Below are positions 5,524 to 37,270 of a DNA stretch of 64,000 bases, piece after piece (within the stretch, counting starts at the first letter, position 1; every line of letters begins with the position of its first letter). A program made the translations under genes and the position numbers. Origin of the DNA: Pseudomonas hefeiensis (lineage in GTDB: Bacteria > Pseudomonadota > Gammaproteobacteria > Pseudomonadales > Pseudomonadaceae); NCBI RefSeq assembly GCF_030687835.1, contig NZ_CP117449.1, positions 5,957,001 to 6,021,000 on the forward strand. The letters are read 5' to 3'. The notes under the pieces were generated by a model. That model searched no databases, was not told the origin of the DNA, and worked only from the letters and a program-made list of their open reading frames with translations.

Positions 5524-6457
5524 GTGTCGGCTGGTACTCGCTCTGATTTTTCATCAAAGCAAATGCCACCCGGCATAACTTTCGGGCCAGCACCACCAAT
5601 GCCTGGGTTTTTGAGAAACCTCTCGCCAGGTATGACTCGTAGAACGGCTTCCATCTAGGCGAGCGGCGTGCTGTCATTGCAGCGATATGAGCCAATCGGC
5701 GTATCTCTGAATCGCCCTTCTTGGTGAGGTGCCGTTGACCCTTCTTTTTTCCGGAGTCATCGACCCTCAAGTCCATCCCCAAAAACGCGATAAATGCATC
5801 GCTGTCCGCAAAATCACCTCGCATGAAACTCGTCGCCAATCCAGTAGCGACCAGTTCACCAACGCCCTCGATGGCTTTGCAGCGGCCGATATTCGCCTCA
5901 ATTCCCGCTTCTTTGCTGACTTTTCGTAGCAACTTCTGAATGGCCTGAATCGCCTGTTCGAACGCCTTTTGCTGAGTGGCCAGCGTTTTTTTTAACAGAG
6001 GCTCATCGTGCCAGCTCAACATCAGGCCGGTATGGTTCTTGACCAGCGTCGCACGCCTATGAAGCAGGCTTTTTAACGTCGTGTAGGCTTTCGGTGGCGG
6101 GCTCCAGAGCCGCAACTCGTGCTGTTCATTGGTTAAATACCGCGCCAGCAGACGAGCATCACAAGGATCGTTCTTAGCCCGCTGGCCGATGCCGCGACGA
6201 TAATTGCTCACCCGATAAGCATCCACGACATAGACCTGATGCCCCATCGCATGAGCCAGCTCGACGGTGTCCAGGTGGTAGATGTTGGTTGCTTCGACGG
6301 CTAGAGCACTTTGGGCGGGCAACGTTTTAAGCCAGCGTTTGAGGGATGTTCGGTCATTCTTGATGGTGTCAGTGGTTTGCAGGTCATAGCGATAAACAAC
6401 AACTTCGGCCTTGGCTATATCAATACCAACAACCGTCTGCGAGGTAAGGATTGTCAT
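5495..6457 (-). CDS. IS110-family transposase (bridge RNA-type recombinase)
   Basis: Intact 320-aa IS110 transposase. The N-terminal RuvC-like DEDD domain has GIDIAK with D13, E55 in AVEATN, and D97/D100 in AKNDPCDARLL. The C-terminal Transposase_20 domain holds the DSGKKKG motif with the presumed catalytic S235. In this family the enzyme acts with a structured RNA from the element's own non-coding end to recombine donor and target. The start at 6457 has GAGG about 9 nt upstream. The last codons (MLQGCPAT-stop) lie inside a 13-bp inverted repeat at the element's right end. About half of the positions match copy 2 by eye. Confidence 0.95.
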   Translation of the reverse strand: MTILTSQTVVGIDIAKAEVVVYRYDLQTTDTIKNDRTSLKRWLKTLPAQSALAVEATNIYHLDTVELAHAMGHQVYVVDAYRVSNYRRGIGQRAKNDPCDARLLARYLTNEQHELRLWSPPPKAYTTLKSLLHRRATLVKNHTGLMLSWHDEPLLKKTLATQQKAFEQAIQAIQKLLRKVSKEAGIEANIGRCKAIEGVGELVATGLATSFMRGDFADSDAFIAFLGMDLRVDDSGKKKGQRHLTKKGDSEIRRLAHIAAMTARRSPRWKPFYESYLARGFSKTQALVVLARKLCRVAFALMKNQSEYQPTPMLQGCPAT

Positions 6458-14515: not shown

Positions 14516-15462
14516 CTAAACACTTTTTGGCTGGTATTCGCTCTGGTTCTTCAACAGAGCAAATACCACTCGGGCAAGCTTGCGGGCCAGTGCCACCAAT
14601 GCCTGAGTCGTGCTGAGCCCTCGGGCTCTCAAGGCTTCATAAAACCCCTTCCATGCCGTTGTGCGACGCGCTGACATCGCGGCGTTGTGCATCAGCCTAC
14701 GCGCCTCCGGATCACCTCGCTTGGTCAGGCAGCGGCGGCCCTTTTTCTTCCCTGAATCCGATATGCGAAGGTCCAAACCTAGGAAGGCAATGAAGGCATC
14801 GGCATTTCTGAAGTCTCCGCGCTGGAAGGATGCGAGCAAACGGGCACCGCTCAATAGGCCAATGCCTTCGACTTTCATGCAGCGTTTGAGCTGATCCAGC
14901 AGCCCGGCTTCCTTCAATTCTGTCTGGATTGTTTTTTCAACCAGGGCTTCCAGTCTCTGCATGGACTTGATCTGGTTATTGAACGAGGTCTTGAGCAGCG
15001 GCTCGTTCGCCCAGCTTTGCTTAAGACTGACACGAGCTTGAACCACGGCCGCCCGGCGCCGGAAAAGGCTTATAAGCCGACGGTACAAAGGTGATGGTGG
15101 AGTCCAAGGGGTCAGATTTTGCCCTTCGTTTTTTAAATAACGGGCCAGTAGCTGAGCATCCAAAGCATCGGTTTTAGCGCGAACGTTCACCCCTTGCGGT
15201 AATGACTCAGTTCATAACCACCGACCATGTAAATCCTGCAATCGGCCCCATGCGCCAGATCGGCGAACTCCAAGTGATAGATATTGGTGGCTTCGATGGC
15301 GACATTCACTGGCGCAGACAAGGCTTTGAGCCATTTCTTGATCGCCGCTTTAGTGTTGGGGATCGTCTCGAGTCGATCTGATTCGGCGTGAAAAATCACC
15401 AACTCGTCTTTGGCGACATCAACACCTACGATCGGCTGAGTGATGGGGACAGGCATTGCCAT
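14516..15462 (-). pseudogene. IS110-family transposase with a single-base frameshift
   Basis: Starts at 15462 (MAMPVPITQPIVGVDVAKDE, GGAGG ribosome site) and carries the DEDD residues VGVDVAK and AIEATN. It stops at HYRKG-TGA near 15187. The next frame continues without loss as VNVRAKTDALDAQLLARYL... through DSGKKKGRRCLTKRGD to the normal end. The break is in a GGGG run (complement of CCCC at about 15191-15194); one extra G would restore the frame. An intact protein would be about 314 aa. Either a true inactivating deletion or a homopolymer sequencing error. No slippery sequence or stimulator typical of programmed frameshifting is evident, and IS110 transposases are normally single ORFs. Confidence 0.85.
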
Positions 15463-35837: not shown

Positions 35838-35931
35838 GTGTGGGAGCAAGGATTGCTCGCGATCCAGGCGCTGCGGTCCTCAAGAGACCGCGGCGTTTTC
35901 ATCGCGGGCAAGCCTTGCTCCCACACAGCCC
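35838..35931. repeat. REP pair bordering IS110 copy 3
   Basis: TGTGTGGGAGCAAGGATTGCTC at about 35837 and inverted ATCGCGGGCAAGCCTTGCTCC near 35900. The tail CACACAGCCCG (to 35931) runs directly into the element and is continued after it by CTCCCACA at 37177. Confidence 0.85.
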
Positions 35932-35957
35932 GCTTGTGTCTTGCGCTACGTTTAGAC

Positions 35958-36125
35958 TGAAGGTGAGAGCGGTGGGTGGCAAGCTGAATGCCCGGAGTGC
36001 TTAAAGCACGTGTGGGAGCCCATGCTGCCACTCACCTCTCCACTCTGGTCATTGAGCCCGAACAGTTGAACGAGCCCACCTCGAACAGTTACAAGCGTGG
36101 GCCAAGCCAGAGCGCTCTCACCTTG
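35958..36125 (+). ncRNA. Putative bridge RNA of IS110 copy 3
   Basis: Loop 1 is closed by GUGGGUGGCA/UGCCACUCAC (35971-35980 with 36025-36034). It holds GCCCG (35989-35993) identical to the left target half, a small GUGCU/AGCAC hairpin, then UGUGGGAG (36010-36017), exactly complementary to the right flank CTCCCACA. Loop 2 is closed by CUCUGG/CCAGAG (36042-36047 with 36106-36111). It holds ACAGUUG (36061-36067), identical to the last seven bases of the element, a CGAG/CUCG hairpin, and ACAAG (36090-36094), complementary to the element's first bases CTTGT. Ends are approximate. Confidence 0.8.
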
Positions 36126-36144
36126 AGTGTAAGAGGGTTTGGCC

Positions 36145-37077
36145 ATGTTTTCCTATCCAGCAGGTATTGATGTTTCAAAAGACAGTCTTCAGGTTCAGGT
36201 TGATCTCTTAGATGTTGGGGTGAGTTGCCCTAACGCTGAAGATGATTTTCCTGGATTAATTGGTTGGCTGCTGCTCCATCAGGTCACCCGTGTGTTGTTG
36301 GAAGCCACTGGCGGTTACGAGCGAAACGTCATGAAAGCGCTTCAGGCTGCAGGTTTTGAGGTCATTCGGATCAACCCCTGCCGAGCCAAGAGCTTTGCCA
36401 AAGCAATGGGACAACAAGCTAAAACCGACCCGATAGATGCGCGCCTCCTGGCGCAATTTGCAGCGGTCATCAAATCGGCTAACAGCCGGATCACAAGTGC
36501 CGAACAGGACGACTTGCGCGCACTGGTCCAGCAACGGGAAAACTTTACTCAGCAGAGAGATGACGACAAACGCAGATTTAAAACGGCCTCATCTGAGGCC
36601 GTTAAACCCGCGTTGCAGAGTCATATCGACTACCTGTGCGAAGCCATTAAGTTGATAGAAAAGATGATCCGTCAAAGCGCTGAAAGCCTGGACAGTGAAA
36701 AAGTCACTCGCCTGTGCTCGGTCAAGGGGATCGGTCTCGTCACGGCAGCCAGCGTAATGGCCTATCTTCCAGAGCTCGGCGAGGTTGGGCGACATCAGAT
36801 AGCCGCATTAGCAGGCATCGCCCCCTACAACGACGATAGCGGCACGCACAAAGGCCAACGCCATATCAGCGGCGGTAGGTTCTCCGCCAGGCGCGCTCTG
36901 TACATGGCCTGCTGGTCAGTGATCAGGTATCAGCCTGACTTCAATGCACGCTACAAGGCGCTGCGCGAGAAAGGCAAATGCGCGAAGGTTGCGCTCATCG
37001 CATGTATGCGGATCTTGTTGATACGTCTAAACGCAATGATCCGGGATGGTTCTGAGTGGAAGGGAGACGTCGCGTAG
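36145..37077 (+). CDS. IS110-family transposase (bridge RNA-type recombinase)
   Basis: Intact 310-aa IS110 transposase, clearly more distant from copies 1 and 2 than they are from each other. DEDD domain: GIDVSKD with D9, E53 in LLEATGGYER, D95/D98 in AKTDPIDARLL. The C-terminal domain has SVKGIGLVTAASVMAYLPELG, GIAPYNDDSGTHKGQRHI with the presumed catalytic Ser, and ARRALYMACWS. ATG 36145 has AAGAGGG 7 nt upstream; a TTG two codons earlier is less likely. It lies between tonB3 and algH without damaging either. Confidence 0.95.
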   Translation: MFSYPAGIDVSKDSLQVQVDLLDVGVSCPNAEDDFPGLIGWLLLHQVTRVLLEATGGYERNVMKALQAAGFEVIRINPCRAKSFAKAMGQQAKTDPIDARLLAQFAAVIKSANSRITSAEQDDLRALVQQRENFTQQRDDDKRRFKTASSEAVKPALQSHIDYLCEAIKLIEKMIRQSAESLDSEKVTRLCSVKGIGLVTAASVMAYLPELGEVGRHQIAALAGIAPYNDDSGTHKGQRHISGGRFSARRALYMACWSVIRYQPDFNARYKALREKGKCAKVALIACMRILLIRLNAMIRDGSEWKGDVA

Positions 37078-37270
37078 ATTGTGATTCCGGTTCCCTCAGA
37101 CAATTGCATAGCCCAGAGCTGTGGGAGGCTCGCTGCCTCTGAAAAAGATGGCTAAATAAACCATCCAAGACAGTTGCTCCCACATTTGATTGGTGTCGCC
37201 TGCCAGATTGAGGCATTTGCTACACATCCCCAGCTTGTCAGTTCGCCCCTGCGCCGCCACACTAGCGCCT

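Follow-up and report, generated by a model that had tools for sequence, protein, structure and literature searches.

An IS110-group insertion sequence in Pseudomonas REPs with a predicted bridge RNA that matches its target and its own ends

IS110-family elements have been described in the REPs of Pseudomonas before. A 2006 paper described how ISPpu9 and ISPpu10 insert into the REPs of Pseudomonas putida (PMC1525189), and the legend of Extended Data Fig. 10c in Durrant 2024 gives ISPpu10 as one of six elements for which a bridge RNA with the full set of four guides is predicted (PMC11208160). The element analysed here resembles ISPpu10 both as an IS110-family element in Pseudomonas REPs and in its predicted bridge RNA with four guides, the comparison being with published descriptions, which give ISPpu10 a 2-bp direct repeat (PMC1525189; PMC11208160). 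With IS621 of Escherichia coli, as presented in two papers, it shares a DEDD and serine recombinase, a CT core, REP targets and a bridge RNA with two split loops in the left end (PMC11208160; PMC11208158), but its guides and target are different. ISEc21 is also of the IS110 family and has an upstream non-coding RNA, the seekRNA, in which a bottom-strand match comes before a top-strand one, as in our element; experiments have shown this RNA to be necessary for transposition, and ISEc21 differs in its target and in having the target matches within a 74-nt seekRNA (PMC11187229). Since ISPpu10 of Pseudomonas REPs is a worked example in Durrant 2024, the mechanism class is not new; the bridge-RNA mechanism is already known, and the present element is a sound new example of it. 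Our reading, to which we give a probability of about 0.94, is that this IS110-group insertion sequence, whose recombinase gene is intact, encodes a bridge RNA guiding it to its target and to its own ends.

The window, i.e. the whole 64,000-nt stretch of DNA that was analysed, corresponds to positions 5957001-6021000 of a 6.45-Mb single-contig genome. Positions 35933-37176 on its plus strand hold an IS110-group insertion sequence of 1244 bp whose first bases are the core CT. It starts with CTTGT (35933-35937) and its last seven bases are ACAGTTG (37170-37176), directly followed by CTCCCACA (37177-37184). Both borders are common to six full copies in the genome, four of them identical and the others at 93% (L005) and 92% (L006). 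All six have the left half-site GCCCG (35928-35932 in the window) and, on the right, the core CT with the half-site CCCACA (37177-37184), reading GCCCG|CT and CT|CCCACA; CT is present at both borders of each and the insertion point is fixed. The outer flanks vary among the copies beyond these half-sites. The site of the window copy is slightly atypical, ...CTCCCACACAGCCCG|CTCCCACA, yet its half-sites are unchanged. In the 92% copy the transposase frame is disrupted and the left end has one more base ahead of its first hairpin; its guides and flanks match all the same.

The intact target is abundant in this genome, as the 13-mer GCCCGCTCCCACA occurs 606 times (307 and 299 on the two strands) and the reversed control once. 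We take these target repeats to be REPs, a label that follows the literature. The earlier note had proposed to compare the flanks of all genomic copies with the guides, and the six full copies all fit. Two solo right ends agreed in part, one (L007) being flanked by CTCCCACA and the other (L008) by the deviating CCCCCACG. Only the terminal 30-36 nt of the element are left at these two places (4274894-4274923 and 5038162-5038197 in the genome), where they are joined to CTCCCACAG or CCCCCACGG; the two truncations end at almost one point, and no left end was seen near either. An empty site that joins the two flanks had also been expected. G010, the best match for the region among 38 genomes searched, has in the same gene interval an intact REP pair that ends in GCTCGCTCCCACA, and the element is absent from that interval. 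This REP is one base off the target, and hence lends support to an exact empty site but falls short of proof.

The IS110 recombinase gene (36145-37077, plus strand) matches the Pfam domains DEDD_Tnp_IS110 (PF01548) and Transposase_20 (PF02371), with E-values of 4.1e-23 and 2.6e-16. By coordinates the element extends 212 nt upstream of the start codon and 99 nt beyond the stop, lengths that agree with the long non-coding left end and the shorter right end of the IS110 group. The window protein has both the RuvC-like DEDD domain and the C-terminal Tnp domain with its serine, and can be aligned to the recombinases of IS621 and ISCro4, for which structures are solved. The residues D9, E53, D95, D98 and S232 align with the catalytic residues of IS621 and are invariant across ten aligned rows, the window row among them. 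A repeated in-frame TGA in the group at 59% identity was considered as a case of recoding and rejected, as it is the natural stop, four residues before the alignment end; the look-up covered nine of the ten stop-bearing matches, and the remaining one, L071, is a broken copy in its own right.

The left end ahead of this gene has the structure of a bridge RNA. A covariance model, R1, which we built on 20 relatives and on none of the copies in this genome, finds a predicted bridge RNA at 35964-36119 on the plus strand with 156.7 bits (E 5e-34). Across the genome the six copies score strongly (150-157 bits) and four other matches reach at most 25 bits. The window holds no second strong match. The predicted bridge RNA sits in the left end, whereas in the IS1111 group it lies in the right end, and this sets the element apart from that group. 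The fold of 35940-36140 has a z-score of -5.3. Aligning 25 left ends yields 40 consensus pairs, and compensatory changes, present in 17 of them, support the structure. The target loop is divided by the hairpin GUGC-UUAAA-GCAC (35997-36009); pairs 1-3 of its four are unchanged in all 25 sequences and the fourth is kept in all 25, once as UG. The fold, the compensatory changes, the covariance model and the guide-flank covariation described below together bear out the IS621-type layout of two stem-closed loops, each split by a hairpin, that had been proposed.

The functional RNA could instead come from the opposite strand, as it is modelled in the Rfam family sX15 (RF02234). This family matches the minus strand at 35957-36122 with 43.1 bits, below its cut-off of 55, and ISPpu9 has a stable antisense RNA to its leader (PMC8450116). 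The base pairs of the first-loop stem point the other way: eight of its cells are G-U or U-G and none is A-C or C-A, the pattern that a sense-strand RNA predicts. The outer stem has five G-U or U-G cells against three A-C cells, the latter corresponding to G-U if read from the opposite strand. The best score of R1 on the opposite strand at the same place is 20.4 bits against 156.7 on the sense strand, and the polarity of the guides fits a sense RNA. We find an RNA made from the minus strand hardly credible as the functional one. The only other Rfam matches, MIR169_6 and mir-621, were judged to be hairpin look-alikes and set aside.

Four guides can be read in the window copy. The left target guide is AUGCCCG (35988-35994), of which GCCCG (35990-35994) pairs and matches the left flank, with which it covaries. 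The right target guide UGUGGGAG (36011-36018) complements CTCCCACA, core included, at 8/8 positions. In the second loop the left donor guide ACAGUUG (36062-36068) equals the final seven bases of the element, and the right donor guide ACAAG (36091-36095) complements CTTGT at 5/5 positions. Every sequence match that the earlier note had claimed between the left end, the flanks and the element's own ends therefore exists; its right-end features lie where it had placed them and its left-end ones had been placed one base too low.

These matches might be chance likenesses, or short REP remnants captured in the left end. Each is short by itself: in 100,000 dinucleotide shuffles of 35950-36144, GCCCG occurred in 22,964, the 8-mer in 1,146, the 7-mer in 3,299 and ACAAG in 29,249, so that two of the four are found in 23% and 29% of shuffles. 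All four in the given order and spacing occurred in none of the 100,000, and hence the two 5-mers are weak alone but the full four-guide layout is not chance, in line with the earlier expectation that agreement at four places would be very improbable. Moreover, the register of the guides is fixed relative to the hairpin across relatives, the stems covary by compensation, and the permutation tests of guides against flanks given below contradict such an origin as well, which we regard as extremely unlikely. The left target guide is the weakest part, with a match of only five bases. AGCCCG recurs just upstream of the left donor guide, and relatives whose targets are very dissimilar keep GCCCG at that place. 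Because this second GCCCG is conserved whatever the target, GCCCG can be assigned to the first loop only by way of the relatives.

The guides change together with the flanks across relatives. Close relatives (E <= 1e-40) were found in 34 of 398 same-genus genomes, own genome included, and the guides of their copies were read in the register set by the GUGC...GCAC hairpin. Our copy table has 94 rows, of which four are duplicate places (L036, L027, L028, L125), leaving 90 distinct copies. Thirteen of these lacked the hairpin register or the right flank (L090, G188b, G339, G269, G132), leaving 77, and for 27 of the 77 no left flank was read, the border having been missed by the search string or lying beyond a contig end, leaving 50. 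The right guide matches at 7/7 bases in 75 of the 77 distinct copies with readable guide and flank, own copies included, while the left guide matches at 5/5 in 28 of the 50 copies with a readable left flank and in 45 of 50 if G-U-type wobbles are allowed (79/81, 30/52 and 47/52 with the duplicates kept).

We compared own with swapped flanks or ends for three of the guides by 100,000 permutations, in which each distinct flank among 41 rows was represented once. The right target guide matched 7.08 versus 5.82 of 8 bases (n=12), the left donor guide 6.73 versus 5.49 of 7 (n=11) and the left target guide 4.50 versus 3.68 of 5 (n=12), each at p <= 1e-5, values that overstate independence somewhat because the representatives are related. 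The right guide without the core gave p = 0.018. For the left target guide p was 0.0002 at seven rather than five bases and 0.0008 with the whole RNA rather than the 5' arm of loop 1, this arm having been picked after the alignments had been seen; the left-target test was run without own_window, G188b, G339, L159, L170, L171, L173-L179 and L184, which are outside the aligned architecture. The borders of single-copy types were placed by motif.

Guides that vary with their flanks include ATTCG (G018), GCCCC (G309), CTCCTAC (G364) and CTTCCTAC (G161), the CTCACTC type in G188b and G339, a further variant CTGAATTA, and TAACAC or TAACGC paired with CTGA(A/G)TTA in relatives that bear sX15. L115, a G018 copy whose wider flanks are of another kind, still has ATTCG|CTCCCAC, as its own guides demand, and the right donor guide reads AUAAG in elements that begin with CTTAT (L142-L145, L147). 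Mismatches were seen as well. The flank is GCCCC against the guide GCCCG in three G165 copies, GGCCG against GCCCG in one G308 copy and AGCCC against GCCCC in one G188 copy; the right guide mismatches in two G156 copies, and two of the four G188b copies have the flank CTCTCTC where the guide reads CTCACTC. Among distant class-level relatives, L173 and L175-L178 have the right flanks CTTGTTA(G/T), which we take to be attC-like, and their left donor guides track the ends ACAGTCG, ACAGTCA, ATAGTCT and ATAGTCA, with one mismatch in L178.

One might suppose that the structured left end only serves to regulate the transposase mRNA as its 5' leader, a role proposed for that of ISPpu9, with the recombinase itself recognising REP hairpins and the guide matches only reflecting a common target. 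REPs are palindromic, the same REP position is used by three IS110 types in the genome, and in ISPpu9 the 5' leader is indeed structured and has an antisense RNA (PMC8450116), all of which would suit this explanation. However, it predicts neither guides that track changed flanks such as ATTCG, CTCCTAC, CTTCCTAC, CTCACTC and CTGAATTA (p <= 1e-5) nor ordered matches to the element's own ends, because recognition by protein alone gives no reason for either, and we judge it quite improbable. With a bridge RNA as the preferred reading, the same natural guide variants are material for testing the code, and they could probe its tolerance of G-U wobbles and of left guides without core pairing.

The nucleotides next to the guides follow the published pattern in part. 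The IS621 structure paper describes handshake nucleotides, which follow the right guides and form pairs with the partner DNA once strands have been exchanged, and covariation of these nucleotides among IS110 orthologues has already been published (PMC11208158). In the window copy the right target guide is followed by CC (36019-36020), whose first C pairs with donor position 7 (G) and whose second is unpaired with T6; the right donor guide is followed by CG (36096-36097), which pairs with target positions 6-7 (CG). Across relatives, the first handshake nucleotide behind the right target guide and donor position 7 form a pair in 39 of 41 rows, or in 36 of 38 without the second copies own_window, G310b and G018b, and the second nucleotide pairs in 24 of 41. 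Position 1 also pairs where the donor ends in GA (UC), GG (CC), CA (UG) or CT (AA). The handshake in loop 2 is not consistent across relatives, with 27 of 40 rows at position 1 and 20 of 40 at position 2. The result in loop 1 confirms the published pattern.

The left guides differ from those of IS621, where the core is said to belong to all four pairings and CU is the core in the guides (PMC11208160); in the window element GA follows the left guide of the target loop and AA that of the donor loop. CU follows the left target guide in none of the 17 rows from own to G364 (47-100% identical), which have GA, AA, CG or AG there, and it is present in G188b and G339 (both 39% identical) and in five sX15 rows of the attC type. 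We treat core pairing of the left guides as a trait of IS621 and not as diagnostic of the family. The right target guide is also longer in the window element (8 nt with the core) than the G77-G80 of the IS621 structure. Our analysis shows, by sequence alone and with controls, that an IS110 element in Pseudomonas REPs obeys the bridge-RNA code, one handshake position included.

A mechanism can be proposed by analogy with IS621 and ISEc21. The 5' non-coding region would be transcribed into a bridge RNA of about 155-170 nt, which would bind its own recombinase. Loop 2 would read the joined ends of an excised circle (ACAGTTG, CT, TGT), and recombination at CT, presumably by the serine chemistry of IS621, would insert the element with no target bases lost and with CT at both ends. 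A putative promoter at the circle junction keeps its register in many types, and in the window element it matches at 7 of 12 positions, near the shuffle mean of 6.6 and thus no better than shuffles.

The Rfam family sX15 (Xanthomonadaceae) appears to model the opposite strand of IS110 bridge RNAs, as the bridge RNAs predicted for IS110 relatives line up with its reverse complement. It matches at 54 places in 26 of the 149 genomes of G409's family, which is probably Xanthomonadaceae, judging from Rfam's description of sX15. We examined 30 of the 54 places, 20 of which exceed the family cut-off; four end at a contig end, leaving 26 assessable. At 20 of these 26, and at 13 of the 18 assessable loci above the cut-off, the start of an IS110 transposase lies 27-40 nt downstream on the strand opposite to sX15. 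One locus has a partial IS110 transposase at 117 nt, and none was found at the expected place at five of the 26 (L146, L150, L151, L164, L167). A weak sX15 match of 35.8 bits, also counted among the 54, falls on the same strand as the bridge RNA and overlaps a strong match. R1 was run on 11 of the 30 loci and matched 10, each on the strand opposite to sX15, with 66-78 bits at L140-L147, 32 at L150 and 25 at L151; it gave no match at L164. L146, L150 and L151 are thus bridge-RNA-like without a detectable adjoining IS110 transposase, and are perhaps remnants or RNAs used in trans. Flanks were read at twelve loci: five (L142-L145, L147) are in TAAC(A/G)C|CTGA(A/G)TTAA sites with matching guides, and seven (L153, L154, L157-L159, L161, L163) are at CTCCTAC sites. 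The former sites presumably resemble integron attC sites.

A connection of sX15 with IS110 bridge RNAs would put right how this database family is interpreted. We found no published account of it in the literature searched, the primary sX15 report being outside that search; one paper with both sX15 and Rfam in its text gives no more than the name, the words sX15 and Rfam are absent from the main text of Durrant (PMC11208160), and sX15 from the wording of the related sX13 paper. Should the sX15 strand exist as an RNA, as opposed to being an error of the model, an antisense transcript could bind up the guides and so modulate transposition, to which Asr9, reported to affect ISPpu9, offers a parallel. 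That IS110 bridge RNAs have such natural antisense partners, the sX15 strand being one, is a speculation that we consider doubtful.

Two further IS110 types lie in the window on the minus strand, at 5534-6427 and 14531-15208, and are 24-29% identical to the window recombinase. Five and three copies of them in the genome were read (L017-L024), L025 being an additional partial match. Their left ends have AGCUCG or GUCCG, plus GUGGGAG stretches. The right flank is CTCCCACA in all eight copies, and hence one REP position is common to three distant IS110 types.
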